A stretch of DNA of 64,000 nt from the NCBI GenBank assembly GCA_037783545.1, contig JBBELK010001202.1, positions 62,001-126,000 of the forward strand, read 5' to 3'. Numbering within the stretch: the stretch's first letter is position 1; each line of letters opens with the position of its first letter. This document shows positions 11,225-59,620 of this stretch, in pieces. Under the pieces are notes generated by a model. It did no database searches, had not been told where the DNA came from, and saw only the letters and a list, made by a program, of their open reading frames with translations. Position numbers and translations under genes: made by a program. Source of the stretch: Henricia sp. BOLD:AAB3569 (Eukaryota; Echinodermata; Asteroidea; Spinulosida; Echinasteridae).

Positions 11225-13252
11225 ATAGTCCGGGAGCCCAGCAGGATTTCATCATAATTTTGAGTGCAAAAGGTTTGAAGTGTGGGATTGGTAGAAGTAG
11301 CTGGGACATCTCCCAAACGGGCTTTCTTAAGTGTCCCGGGTGGTGCGTTGGGAGGGGGCAGCCCCCTAAAGTCACCCAAAAATTCGGTTTCATCATAATT
11401 GAGAGTGCAAACCCAATTTTAGCACGGATCGTCAGGCCAACCTACACTGATTGAGAATTCGTTACTTAAGAAAGATAGATTTGGTGCGTTAGCCACTTAA
11501 GAAAGCGGTTAATTAGCGCTAATTAGACGTTTAATCATAATTCTGAGTGCAAAGACAAAACGTATGTCTATGTGCACCCTACACACGGCTGAACACAAAA
11601 ATGCCACTTAAGAAAATTTCTGGTGGTGCGAACCCTACTTAAGAAAGGGTCAAAGGTTAATTAGGTCAAAGGTCACCAATATTCAAAATACGAAGAGCAA
11701 GTTTCTGGCGTGTTTGGATTGAAAGTTTATGACAAATCAATCACTGATTAACCATTTAAGAACAAGATATGTGGTGCTAAGTCTAATTAAGAAGGCCTTC
11801 AATTAGCACTAATTACACCTTTAATCATAATTACGAGTGCATCAATAAAACAAGTGCCAATGTGTTCCTATAACCATACAAAGGCAAAATCACCCGCTTA
11901 AGAAAATGTTTGGTGGTGCGAACCCTGCTTAAGAACGCCTGGAAATCCTGAAGGTCAGGGTCACGTGTAACAGTAAGCCCCGCCCCCTGCGTCTTCCCAT
12001 TCCCGCCCTGCACCCCGGCGCACTGCATCCCGGGTGCCCTGCACTGCCGACCCCCACCTCCTGCACCGCATGACCCAGGCGCCATGGTCCCCGGTTCCCT
12101 CTCCCGGTCCTGATCCCCACACCAATCCCCCCCCCCCCCCCCACCCGGTCATGATACCTGCAAGTTACGGATATGTGCTGTTGTCAAACACGATTGCCTA
12201 ATACATATGCCAAATTGAAGAATAATGTCGAGGTGGTTACGATGTATAAAAGGAGGGCACCATGCGCCTCCACCCCCCTTTCCCCGCTGAGCTACATCAG
12301 ACCGATCACCCAACCCGACGATCTGAGTGGGCTTGTCAGGAGTTGAAGTTCCGCTTTCATGAAAATCCCCCCCACCCCGACCAAACCAGCCTACGCGCCA
12401 CTAACTGTTTTCGATTTGCTGATAAATAATTTGTAACCTAAGAACAGCATATCACGTGTATCAAGTGCGTAAGGACAACTTATTTAGCCAATTTATTGGT
12501 ATCAATTAGAGTAATGCGCGCCAACAAGTTCAACACTTGATTCACAAACAAGCTAATGAACCAAATTTCACAAATTAGTTAGAATTATTCCCAGTGACGG
12601 ATCTAGCTCATTAAAATACAGGAATACGATGGATTTCAGGGGGTTATTCCCGTCCATTTTGTGTTTAGGAACTGGTTAAAGATCGGTAATATTACTATTA
12701 GCCACCTTTGGTAATGGAGTGCGAATTTTTATGTTTGTGTTGGTTTTGGTTAACCTATCCGGACCGGAACTACAGGTCAGACCACATACTGCGAGCTTCC
12801 AGCCTAACCCTCCGACGACTCCAGATCTCTAGCACCCGGTCACACCGAGCTGCCCTAAAAAAAGAGAGAGAGATAGCCCATGCTCCAGGATCCAAGCCCT
12901 CACCAAGTCATTTAGTAACCACGCCTTGGACCAACCGCCGGCCGTATAAACAGATTAGGACATTTCACAAAATCACTCGTACCCACGCGCCCGAGTCCGC
13001 CCTATAAGCCGGACAATAGAACTGATCTATATCCTAACGTCCGTACAATACCAAGCCCTTCAGGTCCCAGCCAGCCTTGATTAGCCAAACAGTGGTCAAC
13101 CTCAGCCTGCAGCGACCGCTCTCACGCACAGAAACCAAAGTTCTGTCCCTCGGCATGAACTTTGCCATCCCGGTCGAGGACATCATTCAGTCAACAGAAC
13201 TGGCCTTACAACACCTCAGCAAGACGACCGTAGATGATGATGATAATGGCAT
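11225..13252 (+). repeat. Left arm of 2-kb inverted repeat
   Basis: The arm reverse-complements 14697-16675 over its full length, with small gaps. It includes CTTAAGAAA-type motifs, a GC-rich block (11970-12140) and a C tract near 12127. Frames through the GC-rich block look spurious. Confidence 0.9.
13078..13233 (+). pseudogene. Penelope-like reverse transcriptase N-terminal fossil (left arm)
   Basis: The frame reads VVNLSLQRPLSRTETKVLSL then GMNFAIPVEDIIQSTELALQ. It resembles the NLS..LT..E...L..GLNFA pattern that precedes the reverse transcriptase in Penelope-like elements, as I remember it. No RT core follows. The left arm lacks 15 bases that the right arm keeps, which are in frame. Confidence 0.45.
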
Positions 13253-14696
13253 ATTATGTGTTAGTGGCCTTGCCACAGGGTGATGTGAAGTGTCTAGTGC
13301 AGTATTGTTGTATATAGTATTGCACACCCCGCTTTCTACCATCAGCTGCTGCCGCTGGCTAGCTCACTCAGCGCGAAAAGGGAGCCGAGCGTGTAAGTCT
13401 CCCCTGCCAGTACATAGCCTCTCCACCACCAAGACTCCTGCAGTGCCTCCTCGTGGCAACACACGGTAACTGGGGACCTTGCGGCCTCAGGCTGAATCTG
13501 TAGGGGATCTCGGAGCAGCAGGTGGGCCCCAGAGACATGGTGTGCAGGCCACCGACGTGTGGATACGTCCTGGTACCATGTCAACCACCCCCCCCCCCCC
13601 CCCCCCCCCCCAGCTATGGGTCAAATAGCTCCACTGCCTTGTGGATGTCTTGGGAAAGTCATAGGCTAAGGAGTAAACCCCGACAGCAAATCGGGAGTGG
13701 AGCCCCCACGGCGGTTGTATGGCATAATTGTCACCTTCCGGCAACTCCTGCATCCCGGTCCGCCCCAGCCGTCTCGACTTTGTCTTGCCACTGGACCCGG
13801 CGTATCAGGACGAGAGAGTGAGGCCGATGCAGCGCAAGTCTCCCTCACTTTAATCCAAGTCACGCGCATGTCTTGACATCACCATCAGTCAATGTTCAAG
13901 TCCTGTGGCGATGGGGAAACGGCGAAGCAGTAGGTGTGGATACACTGGGAGCTGTAGTCGCGAACCTGCACACAGGCGGCTCAGGACATGTTGTCGTTTT
14001 TCACTGGACCGAGGCAGCAGTGGAGTCCGGCAGCCTTCTGGGTGAGCGAGCAGCCCTCTTTAGGATCGCTCTGCTCGCCTTCATAGTATGAGGACGGGGC
14101 TGCGCAGTGCTATCACAACAGGAGCCCAAAGAGCGGAGGAGCGCCGTTCCCAGCAATGCCGAGCAGAAACGCCAGATGCGCAAAGCCAGAGTCACCGGCT
14201 CCAAAAGCACAGCGCCTACCCACTTCTGCCCCACCCTGTGGGAGAGGTTTCCATGCCCGGATTGGCCTCACCAGCCATCTCCGGACTCATCGCAACAGCT
14301 CACCATCCAACTGATGCCATGGTCATCTTCGATTTCGAAGGACGGACAACAACAACAACATATAGCGCACATATCTAGTATCCTGCAAGATACTCATGGC
14401 GCTTTACACATTATGTCCGACATAACCAAGTACTCAAGCAAGCCAAACAAACCAGACCTTGTTTGGCTTGCTTGAGTACTTGGTTATGTCGGACATAACT
14501 GTCGCTCCAAGCCGCCATGACCGTCATCCTTGCAGGATACTAGATATGCTGCGCTATACTGTTGTCTGTCTGTTGTCCGTCCTTCGAAGTCAGCAGATTG
14601 CCATGGACATTCAGTTGGCTGGTGTGGGGTCCTTCCAGAGAGAGTGGTATACTAGGTGGGGGTGGACAAGATGGCAGTAATCTTAGTCTATATAAG
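13253..14696. other. Spacer between the 2-kb inverted arms
   Basis: This 1.44-kb GC-rich spacer is not itself part of the large palindrome. It contains a C tract near 13587-13611 and the 40-bp perfect hairpin at 14411-14498. Several open frames on both strands have unusual composition and match no family I recognise. It may be a fragment of a former coding element. Confidence 0.6.
14411..14498. repeat. Perfect 40-bp inverted repeat, 8-bp loop
   Basis: TTATGTCCGACATAACCAAG and the next 20 bases are exactly reverse-complemented after an 8-nt spacer. Weaker complementarity continues outward (GAAGGACGGACAAC at 14337 against GTTGTCCGTCCTTC near 14570), so the inner palindrome extends to about 14,320-14,605. 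Confidence 0.95.
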
Positions 14697-16675
14697 ATGC
14701 CATTATCATCATCATCTATATACGGTCGTCTTGCTGAAGTGTTGTAAGGCCAGTTCTGTTGACTGAATGATGTCCTCGACCAGGATTGTCTTAAGCGGGA
14801 TGGCAAAGTTCATGCCGAGGGACAGAACTTTGGTTTCTGTGCGTGAGAACTGTCGCTGCAGGCTGAGGTTGACCACGGTTTGGCTAATCAAGGCTGGCTG
14901 GGACCTAAAGGGCTTGGTATTGTACGGACGTTAGGATATAGATCAGTCCTATTGTCCGGCTCAGGGCGGAGGGCGCGCGGGTATGAGTGATTTTGTGGAA
15001 TTTTCTGATCTGTTTACGGCCGGCGGGTGGTCCTAGGCGTGGTTACTAGATGACTTGGTGAGGGCTTGGATCCTGGAAAAGTCCTTGGGCAGGACCGCAT
15101 CTCTTTTTATTAGAGCAGCTCGGTGTGACCGGGTGCTAGAGATCTGGAGTCGTCGGAGGGCTAGGCTGGAAGCTCGCAGTATGAGGTCTGACTTGGTTCC
15201 GGTCCGGATAGGTTAATCAAAATCAACACAAACATAAAAAATCGCACTCCATTACCAAAGGTGGCTATTATTACCGACAGTCCTTAAACACAAAACGGAC
15301 GGAAATAACCCCCTGAAATCCATCGTATTCCTGTATTTTAATGAGGCTGGATCTGCCACTGGGAATATTTCTTCTTAATTTGTGGAATTCTGTTCATTAG
15401 CTTGTTTGTGAATCAAGTGTTTAACTTGTGGGCATTACTCTAATTGATACTAATAAATTGGCTAAATAAGTTGTCCTTACACACTTAATACACGTGATAA
15501 GCTGTTCTTAGGTTACAAATTATTTATCAGGAAATCACGAACAGTTAGTGGCGCGTAGGCTGGTTTGGTGGTGGTGGGGGGAGGGGGGGAGGGGGGGGGG
15601 GGATTTTCATGAAAGTGGAATTTCAACTCCTGACAAGCCCAGATCGTCGGGTTGGGTGATCGGTCTGATGTAGCTCAGCGGGAAAGGGGGAGGGAGCGCA
15701 ATCGTGTTTGACAACAGCACATATCCGCAACTTGCAGGTATCATGACCGGCTGGGGGAGAAGGGGGTGGGGTGATTGGTGTGGGTATCAGGACCGGGAGA
15801 GGGAACCGGGAACCATGGCGCCTGGGTCATGCGGTCCGGGAGGTGTGGGTCGGCAGTGCAGGGCACCCGGGATGCAGTGCGCCGGGGTGCAGGGCGGGAA
15901 TGGGAAGACACAGGGAGCGGGGCTTACTGTTACACGTGACCCTGATTTTTAGGATTTCCAGGCGTTCTTAAGCAGGGTTCGCACCACCGAACACTTTCTT
16001 AAGCGGGTGATTTTGCTTTTGTATGGTTATAGGAACACATTGGCACTTGTTTTATTGATGCACTCGTAATTATGATTAAAGGTGTAATTAGTGCTAATTG
16101 AAGGCCTTCTTAATTAGACTTAGCACCACATATCTTGTTCTTAAATGGTTAATCAGTGATTGATTTGTCATAAACTTTCAATCCAAACACGCCAGAAACT
16201 TGCTCTTCGTATTTTGAATATTGGTGACCTTTGACCTAATTAACCTTTGACCCTTTCTTAAGTAGGGTTCGCACCACCAGAAATTTTCTTAAGTGGCATT
16301 TTTGTGTTCAGCCGTGTGTAGGGTGCACATAGACATACGTTTTGTCTTTGCACTAAGAATTATGATTAAACGTCTAATTAGCGCTAATTAACCGCTTTCT
16401 TAAGTGGCTAACGCACCAAATCTATCTTTCTTAAGTAACGAATTCTCAATCAGTGTAGGTTGGCCTTACGATCCGTGCTAAAATTGGGTTTGCACTCTCA
16501 ATTATGATGAAACCGAATTTTTGGGTGACTTTAGGGGGCTGCCCCCTCCCAACGCACCACCCGGGACACTTAAGAAAGCCCGTTTGGGAGATGTCCAAGT
16601 TACTTCTACCAATCCCACACTTCAAACCTTTTGCACTCAAAATTATGATGAAATCCTGCTGGGCTCCCGGACTAT
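14697..16675 (-). repeat. Right arm of 2-kb inverted repeat
   Basis: Reverse complement of 11225-13252. The G tract near 15575-15602 answers the C-rich block of the other arm. Differences between the arms are scattered substitutions plus small indels. Confidence 0.9.
14735..14890 (-). pseudogene. Penelope-like N-terminal fossil (right arm)
   Basis: The mirror copy of 13078-13233. It retains five codons missing from the left arm (reading AIPLKTILVEDII), so it is the less damaged version. No reverse transcriptase core follows. Confidence 0.42.
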
Positions 16676-25595: not shown

Positions 25596-27180
25596 TTTGT
25601 TTTTAAATGGGACGTGCACTGCATGTTCGCGCAACTTACAACAAGTGTACTATATGTTTACACGTACTGCGCATTCTCTCTTTAGCTATACATGTATAAC
25701 TATGAGGGCGCTATATCACTTTCACGGTAGCAAAACGCGAGTGCATGGCCTGGGGGCTTATTTTTTTTCCCAGGATGGTAAAGGCCAATATTTGCATACC
25801 TCGCTTTAGTTGGTCAGATCATTATGCATATTCATGTTCTTGTTTATTACATGTCATATACCTGCAGAGTGCACACTGTACATGTACTGCACACTGTACT
25901 GTCAGTGTGGTTGGTTGTGCAGTGTGTGGCTTAGTAAGTACGTTGACCACAAATACAAGAAATCCAGGCCCATATGTTACTGCCAAAGAATTACTCTCTT
26001 TGTACATGTACATGTATATATGTTGTCGAATTGAACAGTTTGGTAATAAAAATGACTTGATTGATGTCATTACAATATTTTGTTTGAATTTAAGAAATTG
26101 TTCTAAGTTCCAACATCAGAGCAAGGTTTCCTTGCTCTATGATGGGAAGAAATTGAAACCATAACAAGAACAGCAACGACACAAATATACATTTATGCAG
26201 CGCTTTATTCAACCCGGCAAGAAATAAATGTCAACCTGAAATGATTTAAATGATAAACATAGGTATATTTTGCACAAGAAAACCAAAATCTTCCAAGAAA
26301 ATACTTAATATTTGAAAATTCTGGCTAACTCGTTAGCATATATGTTTTCAATCAATTCATGATCATTGACTTTGTGACGTAAAAGTTGTAAGTTATTTGT
26401 TTCAGATGTTTAGTCCTTGTATGGTCTATTTTTCATCATAAATTGTATATGCGTTCACAATTGTGTGTGATGGATCATGGAAAGGCACTTCAGTGCTAAA
26501 CCAAACTTTGACCTCCATTCCGCATGTCATCACGTACGTTACCAATTATATTTATTGCTGTATTGACCTCACCAAAGCCTTAAACAGCTCATGCACGAAC
26601 ATGCTGTACAACATTACTGGGACGGCCTCGATACTTTTGGTCATTTTAGTTTTGTACACATGTCTATGGGCCATATCCTTGTACACAGTCTGTTCAGTGA
26701 CCGTCGGCCAATCAGCTGTGTTATGGCGTTTCTTGGCCACGCCTTGCACTGTGACAGCGATTCGAGTAGCGACATGTTTATGACTGTGATTTATGACTGT
26801 GCTAGCATTGACCGCATACCTACAGAGGGCAGAACTTATGATAATGACCGACTATGAGAAAACCATAGCAACTGTGCTACTTGCTTGCTGTTACATGTAC
26901 ATTTACGCCGTCGTTATACACTCCTAGAATTATATTCCTCTGTACATTATATTTTAGCCACTATCAAAAATTACTTTTTAAAACAAAAATTGGCAGGTTT
27001 ATAATTGTGTGACTGTAATCACAATTCATACATGTATATAGAAACCCCCATTCAGCTAGAAAACGTACTGTCATGTTCATGTATAACCGACAATATTTGC
27101 ATATACATGTAACATTTTTTGTTTATAACATATTATTTAAGTTTTAAGAAGTGAACATTGCAAAACTGTGATTACCCGTA
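25596..27180. other. Stretch with no recognised gene
   Basis: AT-rich sequence with TACATGTACATG runs (near 26005). A 106-codon plus-strand frame at 26463-26783 is hydrophobic, but it has no recognisable family or splice context and I do not call it. An AAAGCGCTGCATAAATG-like string on the minus strand near 26195 resembles a LINE/SINE tail. Confidence 0.5.
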
Positions 27181-27392
27181 TAACGTTTTACGGTGCTTGT
27201 CTCCGGAAAACACACTTTGTCTCCAGGGGGAGTGAGAGGGTTCATTCCAAAAGCTGGGATGATGCATTGCCTAGGTTACAGTTGGCTGATTGGTTTTCCA
27301 ACCATGCGTTGGCCAATCACATGTGAGGGTCTTGCGCGCCAAAGAGGCCACACTCCTTCGTTGTCCACTGCCGAGTAGGTTTGCTAAAAAAT
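27181..27392. repeat. 212-bp repeat, exact relative of 31995-32206
   Basis: TAACGTTTTACGGTGCTTGT through CCGAGTAGG and TTGCTAAAAAAT is repeated essentially without change 4.8 kb downstream. It contains two CCAAT-box cores around TTGGCTGATTGG and TTGGCCAATCAC, so a promoter-like fragment is possible. Confidence 0.9.
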
Positions 27393-31413: not shown

Positions 31414-31998
31414 TGGTGGTATTTTAACTGACAATGATGAAACTGCATCATTTTGAAGCCTTGGGACTTCTTCCCAGGGTCTCCCTCTGTGTACTTTGCG
31501 GAGGGGGATGTGGGCGGGGTCAAAATTGGGGGGTTGGCTCTTGAAGATCGGACTTTGGGTGGCTTTTTCTTGCCGGCCCAGAAATCCCAGAATGACACTC
31601 GGGATTTTAGAGATTTGGAGTTGTCTTTATTTTACCCCAATATTTGGCCTGAACTTGTGTTACACATACATTGTAGTATAACTCTATTTTGTGGTCAAGG
31701 TTGACTTATATGTAATATAGTGTTAAGTTTGACGTTTGTTTATATGTGTACAACGTGATAGTTAACTGTAAGTTTTTAATTAAAAGGCACCTTGACAATT
31801 CACATGATGTTCTGTTAAGACCAGCTGGCAAATGTTCATGTACATACATGTACATGTATATGTATATTCACGTTTGTGTAGAAAGAGAAAATAATTGAGT
31901 ATTGAGAGTTTGAGACAATAAACTCTCGGCAGTGGATGGCCGAAGTAGATTGGCAAATTGGTTTCCGTGTGTTTCTCTCTCTCTCTGGAGACAATAAC
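31414..31998 (+). repeat. 585-bp direct repeat, copy 1
   Basis: Essentially identical to 33270-33854, offset 1,856 bp, from TGGTGGTATTTTAACTG to GGAGACAATAAC. It is followed by the 212-bp repeat at 31995. It has an LTR-internal-LTR layout, but the ends do not finish in CA and no flanking duplication, primer site or polypurine tract was found. Frames on both strands are open but unrecognised. Confidence 0.92.
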
Positions 31999-32206
31999 GT
32001 TTTACGGTGCTTGTCTCCGGAAAACACACTTTGTCTCCAGGGGGAGTGAGAGGGTTCATTCCAAAAGCTGGGATGATGCATTGCCTAGGTTACAGTTGGC
32101 TGATTGGTTTTCCAACCATGCGTTGGCCAATCACATGTGAGGGTCTTGCGCGCCAAAGAGGCCACACTCCTTCGTTGTCCACTGCCGAGTAGGTTTGCTA
32201 AAAAAT
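31995..32206. repeat. 212-bp repeat, second copy
   Basis: The same sequence as 27181-27392. Here it begins exactly at the end of the 585-bp repeat, sharing TAAC. Confidence 0.9.
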
Positions 32207-33269: not shown

Positions 33270-33854
33270 TGGTGGTATTTTAACTGACAATGATGAAACT
33301 GCATCATTTTGAAGCCTTGGGACTTCTTCCCAGGGTCTCCCTCTGTGTACTTTGCGGAGGGGGATGTGGGCGGGGTCAAAATTGGGGGGTTGGCTCTTGA
33401 AGATCGGACTTTGGGTGGCTTTTTCTTGCCGGCCCAGAAATCCCAGAATGACACTCGGGATTTTAGAGATTTGGAGTTGTCTTTATTTTACCCCAATATT
33501 TGGCCTGAACTTGTGTTACACATACATTGTAGTATAACTCTATTTTGTGGTCAAGGTTGACTTATATGTAATATAGTGTTAAGTTTGACGTTTGTTTATA
33601 TGTGTACAACGTGATAGTTAACTGTAAGTTTTTAATTAAAAGGCACCTTGACAATTCACATGATGTTCTGTTAAGACCAGCTGGCAAATGTTCATGTACA
33701 TACATGTACATGTATATGTATATTCACGTTTGTGTAGAAAGAGAAAATAATTGAGTATTGAGAGTTTGAGACAATAAACTCTCGGCAGTGGATGGCCGAA
33801 GTAGATTGGCAAATTGGTTTCCGTGTGTTTCTCTCTCTCTCTGGAGACAATAAC
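33270..33854 (+). repeat. 585-bp direct repeat, copy 2
   Basis: Matches 31414-31998. The sequence after the end differs (CCGGTACAGC here), which defines the right boundary. Confidence 0.92.
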
Positions 33855-51279: not shown

Positions 51280-53496
51280 TCAATTAAAAGCAACTTTAAA
51301 AAGATGCGTCTTAAGAGTCTTCTTAAAACGCTCTACCGAATTTGATTCTTGAATATTAGTCGGCAGACTATTCCACAGTCTTGGAGCCAAGTATGAGAAG
51401 GCACGATTACAATAGTAAGCAGTACGTCCTCTTACTGGTTGGCGAAGGGTGAATTGTGATGAAGACCGGAGATTGCGACTGGGTTGATATCGTGTGATAA
51501 TATCATTCAAATAAACTGGTGCAAGCTCATTCAAAATTTTGTAAGTAAGTAACAAAATCTTGAAATCAATTCTCTGGGCAACAGGCAACCAGTGTAAACT
51601 GTAGAGCACTGGTTGTATGTGTTCGCGATACTTAGACCGTGTCAAAAGTCTGGCAGCAGAGTTTTTAATTCTTTGCAACTTAGCAACATCACATGCAGGG
51701 AGGCCACATAGCAAACTATTGCAGTAGTCCAAGCGTGAGGACACGAATGCATGTAAAAGTCGCTCCGTTGCATCTTTACCGAGGTATCTGCGAATCTTGT
51801 GTAATGCGAAAGAGGCAGATTTTGTGATGGCACGGATGTGATCTTTCATCTGTAAAGTACTATCTATCATTACACCAAGGTCTCTAGCAGAGGTAGATAC
51901 GCTAACAGTGGCTCCCCCAACCCTGATGGACGGCAGAGAAGGTGTTCTTATACAACGAGAGCAGAGATGGACAATCTCCGTCTTTGAGTCATTGAACACC
52001 ATTTTGTTGCAAACAGCCCATTTTTTAATGTCAGTAACGCATCTTTCCAAGGTGGCAATGGCTTCCGAGCGCTCCGATGGATCAAATAATAAATATAGTT
52101 GCGTATCGTCTGCGTAGATCATATGATTGATTCCATGGCTGTTGATAATATCGCTGATTGGAGCTGAATACAGCGTGAAAAGGGTAGGTCCAAGCACGGA
52201 CCCCTGTGGGACACCTTGTTCAAGAGGAAATTCTGCCGACGAAACACCACCAATGTCCACGTACTGACGACGGCCTTGTAAGTATGATGCAAGCCAGTCG
52301 AGTGCAGTGCCTGAAATCCCATAACGACTATGTAGACGTCTGAGCAAGATTTGGTGGTTTATAGTTTCAAATGCTGCCGAGAAATCAAGCAGCATTAAAA
52401 TGGCTTCTTGATGGCGGTCAACAGCTCGGAGGAGGTCATTGTATACTCGAACAAGCGCTGTCTCAGTCGAATGAAATCTACGATATGCCGACTGTCTTTC
52501 GGTATACAATCCATTTTGCCGCAAGTAATCATTCAACTGAGACAGTGCAACCCTTTCAATCGTTTTAAATACAAATTTCAAATTCGAAATTGGCCTGTAA
52601 TTAGCTAGTTGTCTGGCATCCAGTGATGATTTCTTAATCAACGGAACAACCCTCGCGGTTTTTAGTGCAGCTGGCATTTGCCCACTAGTCAATGATTTAT
52701 TGACAATGTCCGTTATGCAAGGCAATACCGAATCCAAACACTGTTTCAGAAGTGTACCAGGGAGTGGGTCAAGTGGACAAGACTTAATTGCTGATTCTTT
52801 AATGATTTTGTCAACTGTAATTTCAGAGACTGACTGGAATGAGCCGAAAGTACTCCCACAAGACTCGGAGACCTCGACAAATGTTGCAGCCTGAGCAGTG
52901 TGAAGATTACTGCAGAGATGAGTCTTAATCTTGTCATGAAAGAAACGAGCAAAGTCGTTTGCCAGTGTCTGAGCACAATCGTGTAGAGGCAGGACACGGC
53001 CCGTACTCGTACCACCTTTGAATAAGTTGTCAACAAACTGAAAAAGTTGACGAGTATCGCAGCCAGCCAGTTTAGTCCGATAGTATGAAGACTTTGCCTG
53101 CTCCAACATCCGTCTGTACTCCTTACATTGGTCGTTGTACAGCTGCTTATCAACTTCGAGGCCCGATGTAATCCAGGCGCGTTCTCGCTGGCGACGTTTT
53201 ACCTTAATTGCTCGAAGTGCACAAGAATACCACGGTGCATTTGGCCGTAGAGTCACCATCCTGGATTTAATTTGTACATGTAAATCCAGCAGTTCGCTTA
53301 ACACACGTTCATACTGCGCAACAACCTGAGGAAGATCTCCTAATGAAACAATGCCTTGGGTTGAAGTATCAATGTCACCTTTAAGTTTGACTAAATCGAC
53401 ATTTCGCATTTCCCGAAACGTTATCAACTTTTTTACAGAGTGAGGGCGGGCTATGTCAAGTTGACATTTAACAACATAATGATGTTCCATGGGCAA
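51280..53496 (-). pseudogene. LINE reverse transcriptase, 738 codons, open
   Basis: One uninterrupted frame covers the linker, reverse transcriptase and C-terminal domain: ANYRPISNLKF (residues ~298), LLDFSAAFETINH (~369), GVPQGSVLGP (428-437), YADDTQLY (461-468, catalytic DD) and a CR1/L2-type C-terminus (LLHAFVSSRLDYCNSLLCGL, LHWLPVAQRIDFK). The enzyme would copy LINE RNA onto nicked chromosomal DNA. The first codon of the open frame is TTG, not ATG, because the natural start lies in the endonuclease frame. The two frames overlap by 29 nt, so one base change near 53,470-53,496 separates them. Otherwise the domain looks intact. Confidence 0.93.
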
Positions 53497-54165
53497 TCTC
53501 GATGTTAGTAACTACATCATCTGATGTCCTAGTAATTACAAGATCAAGCGTATGGCCACGTCGATGTGTTGAGCCAATTACATGTTGCTGGAGACTTGAA
53601 GAATCTAGCATTTCTCGGAAGACAGAAGCATCGCGGTCGTCGATGACATCAACATGAAAGGTGAAATCCCCAGCCATCATTATACGGCCGGGATGTACGG
53701 TTATCATCTCCAGCAATGTAGAAAAGTTCCTGAAGAACATGGAGCTGGTCAGCTTGTTAGCCTGTGAAGGTGGCGGTCGATAGATAATAAAAAGTCTGAC
53801 AGACGAACCACCAACCGACACCTCAAACTCCATGTGTTCAAATGATTGGAACGCTTGCGTGTGATTCTGCTTGACAACAACACCCTTGTGAGCAAAAAGG
53901 CAGATACCACCTCCCCTACCCTGGGCACGAGGTTGGCTGTAAGTGTTAAAATGAGGCAATGTTTTTCTAACGTCAGCAAGTAAATGGCCGTCACGCTCAT
54001 CGCCAGACAGCCAAGATTCTGTGATGGCAAAAAGGTATATTTTCTCACCAATGATAAAGTCGGTAATAGAAGTAGTCTTCCGAGTCAATGAGTTCGCATT
54101 CCAAATTGCAATCTTTGACGTGGTAACATTTAGCAGACGGCCCCTGGCCCTGCACAGGAACTCTT
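53468..54165 (-). pseudogene. LINE apurinic-type endonuclease, frameshifted from RT
   Basis: The frame starts upstream of its first TTG, with IAIWNANSL typical of the first endonuclease strand. It continues with AITESWL (Glu of the active site), GRGGGICLFAHKGV, LFIIYRPP, MMAGDFTFHVD and GHTLDLVITR. The usual Asn of GDFN is Thr here, and the final Ser-Asp-His region is where the frame breaks, so nicking activity is doubtful. In the family this domain cuts the target before reverse transcription. No ATG is present, so translation presumably began further upstream in an intact relative. Confidence 0.9.
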
Positions 54166-55320: not shown

Positions 55321-56856
55321 TTTTCTTTGCCTCCATGATTTGGTTTTGTAATGTGCTCATGGGAAGGGGACCACGGAAGGACAGCTGCGCTAGCGATTGG
55401 ACGGGCACAGTGCCACCCTTTCGTCACCCGAAGGTATGCGGACCTGAGAAAAGTACCGGGTGGGGGCCTAGTGCCCTCACCTGGGAAACGGCCGGCCTTG
55501 CGGGACCCTATGTGGCTCTATCGTCTGAAAGATTGCTGGCGCTCCTCTCTCCCTTTCACCCATGCTTTACCCCCACCCATTTCCTTGTTTTTTTCTACAT
55601 ACCCTGCTCACTTTTCCACGTTCAAGGTTTCGATCATTTATTTTAGATATGTGCAAGCACCTTTCTACAAAATAGAATAGTCAAGTATATGCTACGTACA
55701 CCGTAAACGAGTTGCTCAGCGAGATAGTCAGTAAAATGCTCATGGCACAAAGGGCACATGTTTGCCAAAAGTGCCAAAAAAACCTACTACAACAACACTA
55801 CAACACTAAATAAGTGATTATAACCCGCCGAGGTGAATTAATTCGATCAATTGTTTGAGGATGGACAGGCGAGTTTCCGTGCCCGCAGCTATCCCAAATG
55901 TTCACCAATGAAATTCGTGTCACGATTCCATTATTTAGTGTCTTTACATGATATAGATAGAAAAGAAATACAATTTTTGACGTAGGAACAGAGTCAGAAA
56001 CGTAAAGTTTTGATCGAGAACTTGCGATTCTTACAACATCCTTACGGCATATATTCTTTATGAATTTTCGTTTTGAGCTGCAGCACGTGCAGCGACCTTT
56101 TGTTATCATTGCTCTGTGTCAAAGTTGAAACTTCCCAGCGTTTCGGGGTTAACGGTGTAATTTAAATAAAGAATATAAAAAATAAAAAGTACTTATGCTA
56201 TTTGGTCGTGGGCGGTTTCACTTAGGTAAACGTTTGGCCAAAAATTGTCATTTTGACGTTTTTGGAATTTGTGCTGAAACAATGTTTGCCCGCTGGAGAG
56301 CAAACACATTTGTGAAAGGACACATGGAGGTCGCGCGGGTCATGTCTGGGCGCGCGCCCCCGTTGGCCCCAAACATGTGTAAAAGCGAATGCGCTTAACT
56401 TGGAATGCGGCGCCTTTGATGTGCAATTTGCATGTCTGGAAACAACGCGCATGCGTGCTTCGTGCGCGGTGCGACTGAATTATAGTGCAGTGCATTTGTA
56501 GACCGTGGGAACTGTTCATTTTCGGTTTAGCTTTCGCTTATAGTTATAACAGACTGCGATCGGGTTGCTTGGGCCTAGCTCTATCCTGCCTGAATATTGC
56601 CGTTGACATATAGCCAGCCATCAGGGGTGAACTGGCAATAAGTAAGAACGTTAAACATTTTGGAACTACGGACAGTCATAGGTAAACGAGGCAGAAAACT
56701 CAGCAACACGGGCAACCCGGTCACCAAACGAGCCAGGCGAGGACGGGTACAATAGACAGGCAACGCGTCGAAAGTACCAGCAGTAAACGCCGAGGATCTG
56801 CCAACACCAGTACCCGACCTTACTAGCTATAATACCACTAATACTAGCCGTAGTAT
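55321..56856. other. Possible LINE 3' UTR, then unassigned stretch
   Basis: 55321-55680 is GC-richer and may belong to the LINE. Beyond that I recognise no gene. Around 56640-56830 a plus-strand frame (QQHGQPGHQTSQARTGTIDR...) continues in the same frame past the 2.4-kb insertion to 59303-59590, which suggests an interrupted coding fossil of unknown family. Confidence 0.4.
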
Positions 56857-56942
56857 ACACTCCTTTAGCAGTGCTTTGCGCGCGCCACTTTAGTTTGCCC
56901 GCTCCAACCACTGCTAAACTTCGCCGCAAATCCTGCGAAGCG

Positions 56943-57053
56943 CGTGGGTGTGACGTCACCCAACACCGAGCCTGGATAACACTTGCCATGATTGGCTTCA
57001 GTCTGTCACCTGACGTTGGTTCTGTCACATGACCTGCATCTGACACAGTAAAG
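56943..57053 (+). promoter_or_regulatory. Candidate promoter of the microprotein gene
   Basis: Upstream of the start codon lie a TGACGTCA (near 56951), a CCAAT-box inverse (GATTGGCTTC near 56990) and TCACATGACC. The start codon sits in AAAGATGGC, a strong initiation context that also resembles a YY1 site. No TATA box is evident. Confidence 0.45.
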
Positions 57054-57155
57054 ATGGCTGCGCCCAGGTACGTCAACACTAACGTTGCTTTGCCCACTGT
57101 CGCGTCGACTTTTTTTGTCATTATTTCGTCCTGGTTGTTAGTGTGGTTTTACACA
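57054..57155 (+). CDS. Single-span membrane microprotein, exon 1
   Basis: ATG at 57054 opens MAAPRYVNTNVALPTVASTF then FVIISSWLLVWFYT, 34 codons ending at a strong phase-0 donor (ACA/GTAAGT). Residues ~17-37, across the splice junction, form one hydrophobic segment able to span a membrane. Without splicing the frame would stop 14 codons later. The start has A at -3 and G at +4. I do not recognise the family: size and layout resemble small integral membrane proteins of mitochondria or ER, but that is only a guess. It lies wholly inside the Mutator-like element, 197 bp from its left end. A much weaker donor (AGG/TACGTC region) exists inside the exon. Confidence 0.65.
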
Positions 57156-57368
57156 GTAAGTATTTGTTTCACGGACATCACTAATCCTTCACCGTGATCA
57201 CTGTACATCCCTATAGAAAGGTGGGGAAATCACATTTTTCAAGCTCTTCTTTTACCGTGTGTAAACTGATTAGGGGAGAGCTGGAGATGAAGAATGGGTA
57301 TTTTTTTCATATACATTGAACACGGATTTGGGTAAATTTATATGTTGGAATCGATAGCTTATTCAATT

Positions 57369-57617
57369 CTAAGATATACTTCCCACTGACACTTCCGTCC
57401 CAAATGTTGCATTTCTGAGATAAATTAATGATAAAATTACTGCATTAAAATGACGTGGCGAGCGGTCTGTGCGTAAGCGCGACAACAGAGGGCGCTGCGC
57501 GCGCGTGAATGGTTATCTTGTGCACTAACTGAAGGCAAATTTTGAGGAAGAAAACGTGATTTTTCTACAGAAAAGCAACATTTGCGACAAAAGTGCAAGT
57601 GGGAAGTATATCTTAAA
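57369..57617. mobile_element. Small inverted-repeat element in the microprotein-gene intron
   Basis: AAGATATACTTCCCACTGAC plus ~25 further bases on the left are inverted on the right (GTGGGAAGTATATCTT), ~45-bp arms around ~150 bp. The intron is 57156-58186, 1,031 bp. Confidence 0.75.
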
Positions 57618-58186
57618 ATTACATTATGTGTGGATTTCAGGAGGTAATTTCCTTAAAATCTTTGTTCAATGTATACGAAAAAAATACCGAAGAATGCGGT
57701 GCCCACAGAGATATATTGTGCCAAGCCAGCGAATAATTCCTCAACTTCAAGTCTGATCAGTCTTAGTTCAACACGCTGTCTCGTTTTCTGCTAAACTATA
57801 AGCTTTGTCACGTAAGCCTATAAATGCAGCAGGAGTACGTAGCACACGTGGGGGCACGCAACGTCGTTGTCAATGTAATAGCACACATTTACGCCTGGAA
57901 TGAAAACTACGCACTCGACGAAGCTCACGAAGAGGAACTGATAATCATTTTTGTGTGCTAAAACAAACAAACAAAGGGCATGTTTTTTACACTGAAATTT
58001 TGCACAAACACAGACAACAATCTCCCCAAACTGTCGCTGGTTTCACAAGTCTGTTTCGCAACACAAACTACCCTGTTTGGACCAGAAATCTCACCGTCAA
58101 ACAAACATCTTGCTGTGTTCCAATTTAAATATTTTAAAAATTTTTTTTTTAAATAAATATCGTCAGAGAGTATTCTTTATTTTCAG

Positions 58187-58240
58187 TATCTATTCAAAAA
58201 GTTGGAATTGAACAATGCTGTTAAGGAGTTTAATTATTAA
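58187..58240 (+). CDS. Single-span membrane microprotein, exon 2 with stop
   Basis: Acceptor TATTCTTTATTTTCAG. The exon reads YLFKKLELNNAVKEFNY and a TAA stop (58238-58240), joined to exon 1 in phase 0, for a 51-residue product. The aromatic YLF completes the membrane segment, KK follows it, and the acidic, polar tail ends in FNY. About 185 nt of 3' UTR lead to a poly(A) signal. The positive charge after the span would favour a cytosolic or matrix-side C-terminus (inference). Confidence 0.65.
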   Translation, partial: YLFKKLELNNAVKEFNY

Positions 58241-58424
58241 TATTTCTTCATGATGTACTCTCTGCAACAGCAAAACCTTTTAATTGATGTGACTATTTAT
58301 TCAGCAGATGGTTTTGCATGTACAGTGTATTATGGGTTACATTTTTGGCAATATTTACGTTTTTAAAATCCACCATGTCATATTTATCAGTTGTGTAGTG
58401 ACTGTGTAAAGTTGTGTGACAGTG

Positions 58425-58434
58425 AATAAATAAA
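58425..58434 (+). terminator. Overlapping AATAAA poly(A) signals of the microprotein gene
   Basis: AATAAATAAA gives two overlapping signals. A GU-rich stretch (ATGATGTGTTTCTGTGTC, about 58462-58479) follows at the distance expected of a downstream element. Confidence 0.65.
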
Positions 58435-58474
58435 GAAAACCGTTAACAGTCATTTTATGTCATGATGTGTTTCT

Positions 58475-58714
58475 GTGTCACAAAAACAAGACCATAATAT
58501 ATATTTTTCCCAAAGTGAGTTTGGCTGTTTATTTAAATTTATTTGGGCAGATGTAAACATAGAGCAAGGAAACAGAAGATTGGGAAATAGAGTAGCTGAC
58601 CTTTACTTAAATCTTGTGTACAACAAAGTAAAATCTTCAGATTTAAATTTCGAACTTGCAAAAACTTATCAAAACTTGATTAAATACACGCCTGGCTTAT
58701 TGGCTATGCTTTGA
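58475..58714 (+). other. Unrecognised 80-codon open frame inside the Mutator-like element
   Basis: GTG-initiated as drawn. It reads GCLFKFIWADVNIEQGNRRL and later KVKSSDLNFELAKTYQNLIK with a TGA stop. Composition is protein-like, but there is no ATG or good acceptor and it follows the poly(A) signal. It may be a fragment of transposase or of a second captured gene. Confidence 0.3.
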
Positions 58715-59302
58715 GTTTTAATAGCTTATTGGTTTTGATTTAGTGGGGCTTAATAATACTGTTCAAAGAAGAGAAATATATATATATTTAAAAAAATAAG
58801 GTATGTGTACTTGAATTCGGGGCGATTCAATAAAGCTCTTTGCGTACAACTTAACCAACGCAAAATAGGTGGACCGTAAAGCAGTCTAATCTGTTCGAAA
58901 TGCCGTTAGATTTCGTTGGATCCCGACTGGACTAGACAAATGTACGTAGAATTTTCATTATTTATGGGTAGAATATTACATATTCTTTGTGTAGAAGGGA
59001 AACATGGACTGTTTTGAGTATTAGCAGTGGGAAATATTTGCCGATTTTTGGTGTGTGTTTTATCGTCTTTTTTTGCAAGCGTATATTTCACTTCTCGCGC
59101 TGCGGACCGGCGGTATATATGCATATGCATGAACGTTAGGAGGCGCGGCGCGATACCCGATTGTGATTGGCTATCGTGCAACAATCCTAACGATTTTGTA
59201 AGCGGTGTGCTGATTGGCTTCGCAGGATATGCGGCGAAGTTTAGCAGTGGTTGAAGCGGGCAAACTAAAGTGGCGCGCGCAAAGCACTGCTAAAGGAGTG
59301 TA

Positions 59303-59620
59303 GCCGTAGTACAGCACGACAGCTACACGAGGTGCCGCTCCTCCATCAGCCACCGGAACCGGGGGTCATGGGACAATCGGCGGAGAAGCTGCTTCCAGGG
59401 CCACGTTAACAACGGGAGTTTCTTCGTTCACGTATGCCCCATTTATACCGGGTGAGCAAATCCCAGTTTACACGGGATTCTCTAATTTGTTGGTAGGGCA
59501 GATCTCGGGGCCTGCAGACTTGTCCGGGGAAAATACTTGTGGGCGTTCTCGTTGTTGTTGTATTTTTTATGGCATCTTCGGCAACTAAGGCCCTTTATGC
59601 CATCAACTTTACGGTTTTTG
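59303..59620 (+). other. Open coding-like stretch right of the Mutator-like element
   Basis: The frame reads YSTTATRGAAPPSATGTGGH then later TYAPFIPGEQIPVYTGFSNL and stops near 59587. It has no recognised domain. It is in frame with the fossil left of the insertion when the element and one duplication are ignored. Confidence 0.35.

Follow-up and report, generated by a model that had tools for sequence, protein, structure and literature searches.

Mutator-like elements (MULEs) have inverted ends of 14–500 bp and target site duplications (TSDs) of 8–11 bp, according to PMC6446971. They are described as rare in animals in PMC8277862, which reports 370 Pack-TIRs across 100 animal genomes. The Drosophila Ssk-FB4 elements described in the same paper hold an almost complete gene and are flanked by duplications of 9–10 bp. 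An earlier examination of the present locus (hereafter, the sequence-only reading) considered gene cargo of this kind to be little described in animals. This statement needs to be amended in view of the 370 animal Pack-TIRs and of Ssk-FB4. According to the same study, its reference genomes yielded no Pack-MULE. In the open-licence literature on animal gene capture and transposons, we noticed no paper on the family described here.

In this work, we found that the locus is probably one copy of a non-autonomous Mutator-like transposon family with terminal inverted repeats (TIRs), approximately 2.5 kb in length, present in the order of 250 copies and moved in trans. The family resembles non-autonomous MULEs in its 86-bp inverted ends, its TSDs of 8 or 9 bp, its 2.5-kb interior, and its many dispersed copies. 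It also resembles MITEs, namely, in the 82–92-bp palindromic derivatives of its ends and in a 392-bp inverted repeat within its putative intron, whereas the 2.5-kb family form is longer than a MITE and has a structured interior. Compared with the Ssk-FB4 Pack-MULE as presented in PMC8277862, there is a similar gene-like unit with promoter, introns, a predicted small membrane protein, and inverted ends, and the TSDs (8 or 9 bp in the copies found here) are close to the 9–10 bp of Ssk-FB4. However, the parent gene, transcripts, and peptides of Ssk-FB4 are known and four copies exist, whereas the present element is described from its sequence, has no parent gene in view, and occurs in hundreds of copies.

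The window, i.e., the whole stretch of 64,000 nucleotides from Henricia sp. that was analyzed, contains the following features of the element.

56847–56855, no strand: left TSD GCCGTAGTA, exact pair
56856–56941, forward strand: left TIR, 86 bp, from the inverted-repeat search
56942–57053, forward strand: promoter-like stretch, from motif positions
57054–57155, forward strand: putative exon 1, 34 codons, 102 nt, matched among the best 150 scored of 375 genome candidates
57068–57073, forward strand: alternative donor GTACGT inside exon 1, unaltered in 29 of the 30 TIR-found copies that cover this site
57297–57688, no strand: MITE-like 392-bp inverted-repeat element in the putative intron, carried by 30 of the 32 TIR-found copies
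58187–58240, forward strand: putative exon 2; the majority of copies stop one codon sooner (50 aa)
58238–59073, no strand: module common to the element and repeat family B, approximately 67 to 86% identical in pieces
58425–58434, forward strand: poly(A) signal AATAAATAAA, unaltered in all 27 TIR-found copies that cover this site
59217–59302, reverse strand: right TIR, 86 bp, from the inverted-repeat search and alignment
59303–59311, no strand: right TSD GCCGTAGTA, exact pair

The element spans 56856–59302 and so begins one base before the start given in the sequence-only reading (56857), which was otherwise right about its placement. Both the 86-bp inverted ends and the perfect 9-bp duplication described there were confirmed: the TIRs are 98% complementary with two mismatches, and GCCGTAGTA has no other exact match in the window (0.13 expected). 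The left TIR contains an inner inverted repeat of its own (TTTAGCAGTG...CACTGCTAAA). The 86-bp ends of the family start with TACACTCC, and the end motif of the family is TACACTCCTTTAGCAGTGC. The interior is a mosaic of three parts: the promoter-like 5′ end, which includes a short open reading frame (ORF); the MITE-like insertion; and a 3′ module that contains the poly(A) signal. Within the promoter-like stretch (633 first-look genome candidates, best 40 scored), we found what we take to be a CRE-like motif (TGACGTCA), an inverted CCAAT box, an E-box (TCACATGAC), and AAAGATGGC at the start codon. The CRE-like motif is not specific, because 45 are present in the window. The Rfam search found no family at gathering score in the window and one weak sub-threshold match in the element.

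The sequence-only reading had called for a search for further genomic copies of the ends, and such copies are abundant. Among the 2,104 contigs of the genome (740.7 Mb), the terminal 30 bases have 490 matches within three mismatches (258 forward and 232 reverse), compared with none for the reversed-pattern control; these matches suggest in the order of 250 elements. For the complete 86-bp end, the best 40 of 756 first-look candidates were scored and all are 100% identical. From the TIR search, eight pairs and 24 further places were fetched. Perfect TSDs flank 25 of the 26 end-paired copies (21 of 9 bp and four of 8 bp, the latter read from rows), while none was found in L020; these duplications and the long TIRs are as in MULEs. 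L022, which is among these 26, shares its flank with the window copy and represents the other haplotype of that copy. Most end-paired copies are 2.5–2.6 kb in length and the longest is 6.0 kb. The interiors of nine aligned copies are 96.1–99.1% identical, and 32 copies differ from the majority sequence by 1.23% on average (1.63% for the window copy). The feature is one member of a mobile TIR family with many dispersed copies rather than a private capture, and this mobile element is real and of an ordinary kind.

Small derivatives were found as well. The 100 perfect ends listed among the 490 matches form 40 inverted pairs (by eye), five of which span 82–143 bp; an exon-1 match lies inside 34 of the other 35. 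The three small pairs that were fetched of these five (L100, L101, and L102) measure 85, 82, and 92 bp and have TSDs of 9, 8, and 9 bp, respectively (the 8-bp TSD read from its row); each is a near-perfect palindrome that consists of nothing but family ends. Such palindromic copies with TSDs indicate that the interior, including the gene region, is dispensable in cis for movement. Further small palindrome candidates are located at C69:1460659–1460801 and C132:716804–716901. At the other extreme, an 11.9-kb end-to-end copy contains a 287-aa frame that gives the impression of a retrotransposon gag (L024:4287–5150), and such long copies may therefore be nested insertions. The main yield of this work is a young animal transposon family of approximately 250 copies with TSDs and 82–92-bp palindromic derivatives, which merits a family entry.

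Regarding mobilization, a transposase made elsewhere may recognize the outermost 40 or so bases, excise the element, and reinsert it through a staggered cut of 8–9 bp, with the interior traveling as a passenger. Of the 29 ORFs of the element, 14 were scanned against Pfam (10 plus four), and neither these nor the 51-aa product gave a family above the cut-off. Elsewhere in the genome, we found 19 matches to MULE-domain stretches, such that a helper is possible, and 20 stretches of IS1595-type (Merlin) transposase. Four of the MULE matches and six of the IS1595-type stretches are located on contigs C1–C154, the reach of the 100 listed perfect ends, and none of these is closer than 10 kb to one of those ends (by eye). 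Membership in the MULEs is assigned by the ends and the TSD length only, since no transposase was found in the scanned ORFs of the element or linked to its ends.

Merlin elements have duplications of 8–9 bp and short ends that begin with G. The TSDs of the family copies are also of this length, and an assignment to Merlin, or to another superfamily with 8–9-bp duplications, would fit both the mixture of 8- and 9-bp TSDs and the IS1595-type stretches in the same genome. However, the family ends are long and start with TACACTCC, MULE stretches are present too, and neither kind of transposase is linked to the family ends. We consider a superfamily other than Mutator unlikely.

The two-exon ORF drawn in the sequence-only reading is present as described, with an ATG at 57054 in strong context (A at −3 and G at +4), the 34-codon exon, a GTAAGT donor at 57156 (ACA|GTAAGT), a 1,031-nt intron ending with the acceptor at 58186, a stop codon ending at 58240, and overlapping AATAAA signals at 58425 and 58429. 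Its translation in the window has 51 residues (MAAPRYVNTNVALPTVASTFFVIISSWLLVWFYTYLFKKLELNNAVKEFNY), compared with 50 in the majority of copies because of a stop-codon change; the best 19-residue hydropathy is 1.89. The product has no relative among solved structures and nothing above the cut-off in Pfam (best 15.3 bits, cut-off 21). Searches of collections with few or no animals gave no confirmed match in viral contigs (28 pattern stretches) and nothing in phages, and general genome contigs likewise yielded nothing; the 20-base TIR pattern was also absent from the viral contigs. A genome search for intronless copies, with a 30-base pattern of the drawn junction and up to three mismatches allowed, found none. 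One candidate for a spliced retrocopy (L042; match at 1–37, 100%) was rejected, since its intron is present with an extra A at the donor. The bacterial promoter scan of the DNA is uninformative for an animal.

This gene model was picked after the fact and is only slightly out of the ordinary. The chance estimates are post hoc, as their thresholds were taken from the observed values. With one strand considered for each sequence, a two-exon model arose by chance in 12 of 1,000 dinucleotide shuffles and 17 of 1,000 other segments of the window; when a membrane-like stretch was added, these counts were 3 and 0, respectively. Under three looser settings, the counts per 1,000 shuffles and segments, respectively, were 49 and 83, then 252 and 269 when any ATG context was allowed, and finally 140 and 189. 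A smaller run gave one in 300 shuffles and five in 400 segments. Furthermore, four different second exons satisfy the criteria of the drawn model. The alternative donor CAG|GTACGT at 57068, 14 nt past the A of the ATG, outscores the drawn donor (5.55 versus 3.22 bits, using an approximate matrix). If the element is transcribed, its first exon would more likely end at this strong donor, and a non-coding or short-peptide RNA would be more likely than a selected membrane microprotein. Another ORF that follows an AG (58552–58714) was rejected as the true last exon: it has no Pfam match, its lone match to a solved structure (E = 0.65) was taken as chance, and several indels in its alignment to family B would break the reading frame, their lengths not being divisible by three.

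Repeat family B provides one reason for preferring the inner donor. B is a 2,827-bp insertion (L037:3121–5947) near the left end of L037 (C5:121400–127609), which is itself a 5,422-bp family copy with a perfect 9-bp TSD. This B copy, the sole one with the 5′ part, carries AAGATGGC with a GTAAGT donor 3 nt beyond it. It has 19-bp inverted ends (CAGTCAGTCCGCAGCGCAC) and a 4-bp TSD, and its 3′ part matches the window at 58238–58776 (66.7%) and 58899–59073 (85.7%). The B module is multicopy, with 351 genome candidates (best 40 scored, those at or above 96%). A further copy (L099) is 96.6% identical to B over its main stretch and stops 39 bp before the right end of B; a search of L099 for the 19-bp ends was negative, and the ends of B are for this reason defined by L037 and its partly identical neighbor L036 only. 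Outside the module, no alignment between the two families exceeded those of shuffled sequences for the three stretches tried, 5′ parts included. A module common to two families poses a small puzzle of interior exchange between cut-and-paste elements.

These observations bear on the possibility that the element is an internal-deletion derivative, in which the promoter, the start of the first exon, and the 3′ untranslated end are left from an autonomous transposase gene and the drawn ORF lies within an intron. The stronger donor shortly after the ATG, the similarly placed donor in B, and the same 3′ module with poly(A) signal in B are all consistent with such an origin. On the other hand, no autonomous relative was found, the ends of B differ (as judged from one copy), and the 5′ parts of the two families are unalignable above shuffles. 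This derivation is possible but rather doubtful.

The 392-bp element in the putative intron is flanked by an 8-bp TSD of its own (GAAGAATG, at 57289–57296 and 57689–57696). Both of these duplications were found as exact strings in 18 of the 30 copies that have this element, and one in the other 12. Given its presence in 30 of 32 TIR-found copies, its entry probably predates the spread of the family. A relative of this 392-bp element sits in L032, outside the family element. Within the CpG-rich middle of the inverted repeat, AGAGGGCGCTG is located at 57487–57497, and we take this to be a CTCF-like motif.

Whether the reading frame has been under selection was examined by comparing copies. Exons were located by exact strings in 32 copies; exon 1 was located in 25, of which four lack the acceptor string, and the ORF is intact in 16 of the 21 copies with both exons located. 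Among TIR-found copies with letters at the respective sites, the start codon (31/31), acceptor (28/28), stop codon (28/28), and drawn donor (27/30) are largely or fully intact. Exon 1 of the 32 TIR-found copies has seven synonymous changes versus six nonsynonymous or stop changes (P = 0.032), compared with a neutral synonymous fraction of 0.264 (approximately 26%) derived from the intron spectrum. These counts alone give a hint of constraint. When 27 flank-found copies were added (59 copies; C133 and C46:700428 from the 5′-flank list are absent from the exon-1 counts), the counts became 11 versus 20 (P = 0.17), and leaving out six intact protein-found copies (53 copies) gave 9 versus 20 (P = 0.35). 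Exon 1 is broken by a frameshift or stop in 16 of the 59 copies, and 18 of the 23 exon-1 indels shift the frame while five are in frame.

Among the 32 TIR-found copies, shared variants occupy two of 153 coding sites versus 66 of 1,023 intron sites (P = 0.008). Singletons are also fewer in coding than in intron sites (P = 0.017), and the shared-to-singleton ratio does not differ between the two (P = 0.25). Two other signals were discarded. A synonymous excess of 11:5 among exon-1 singletons in 56 copies was rejected as evidence of selection, because 24 of these copies had been found by protein similarity (these alone contribute four synonymous and no other changes). The lack of shared exon-1 variants was dropped as a sign of lineage-level constraint, with V7L, S25S, and F21L each occurring in two copies among 21 flank-found copies. 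Given how young the copies are and how few were sampled, these data give no firm answer on selection.

The 50-aa single-span protein could be a transposon accessory that was kept for aiding spread, with master copies selected and daughter copies decaying. The intact signals, the TIR-found exon-1 counts, and the lower variation at coding sites argue for this. The latter two also count against our main reading of the element, as does the rarity of the drawn model at its own thresholds. However, the exon-1 excess is not significant once the flank-found copies are added, 16 of the 59 copies are broken in exon 1, and the palindromic copies moved without the gene. Also, B has the 3′ module, yet its best peptide match to the drawn ORF has E = 0.022 over 12 residues, and its 5′ part is unalignable above shuffles. 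We regard an accessory role as quite unlikely. In a fuller proposal, which is more improbable still, a two-exon gene equipped with a promoter and a poly(A) site of its own yields a single-span membrane microprotein of 50 residues, and master copies retain this gene because it favors the element, for example through effects on silencing or on the host cell. Support for the microprotein gene is weak and mixed, and we regard it as a lead. If the proposal is true, the product would differ from the accessory proteins described for Mutator elements and would define a new class among those of transposons, and the family would be an approximately 250-copy gene family built by a cut-and-paste element in an animal.

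The sequence-only reading had inferred either DNA-level capture with the intron retained or an unusual element gene, and suggested looking for the same gene outside an element. Among 38 loci (the 30 best protein hits and eight lower-ranked ones), no copy of exon 1 was found outside the family, all being family sequence. All eight lower-ranked hits, considered as parents, are family sequence, mostly with exon-1 indels, and one (L074) is alignable in part. A distant parent gene could be hidden, because the best 150 of 375 exon-1 candidates were scored. Of the original interpretation, the mobile TIR element with Mutator-like ends is supported (25 of 26 copies with an 8- or 9-bp TSD), while host-gene capture is not supported by the 38 loci examined.

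Under the capture model, a host microprotein gene would have been taken up at the DNA level by a Pack-MULE, complete with its promoter, both exons and the intron between them, and its poly(A) site, and the element would then have multiplied. A housekeeping-like motif cluster upstream of the ATG, the complete ORF and splice signals retained in 16 of the 21 copies, and the precedent of Ssk-FB4 in PMC8277862 are consistent with this. The 38 protein-hit loci examined include no copy outside the family, the product has no match among solved structures and no Pfam family above the cut-off, and the 3′ part is common to another repeat family, all of which make such an origin very unlikely.

Other repeats are present in the window. 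A near-palindrome of approximately 5.45 kb (11225–16675) has 914-nt outer arms that are 98% complementary, and no TSD was found at its ends. Two identical 585-bp direct repeats (31414–31998 and 33270–33854), 1.9 kb apart, are LTR-like or may represent a recent duplication, and 27180–27392 is identical to 31994–32206. Furthermore, frames for reverse transcriptase and endonuclease on the reverse strand (51283–53511 and 53471–54163) are LINE-like.
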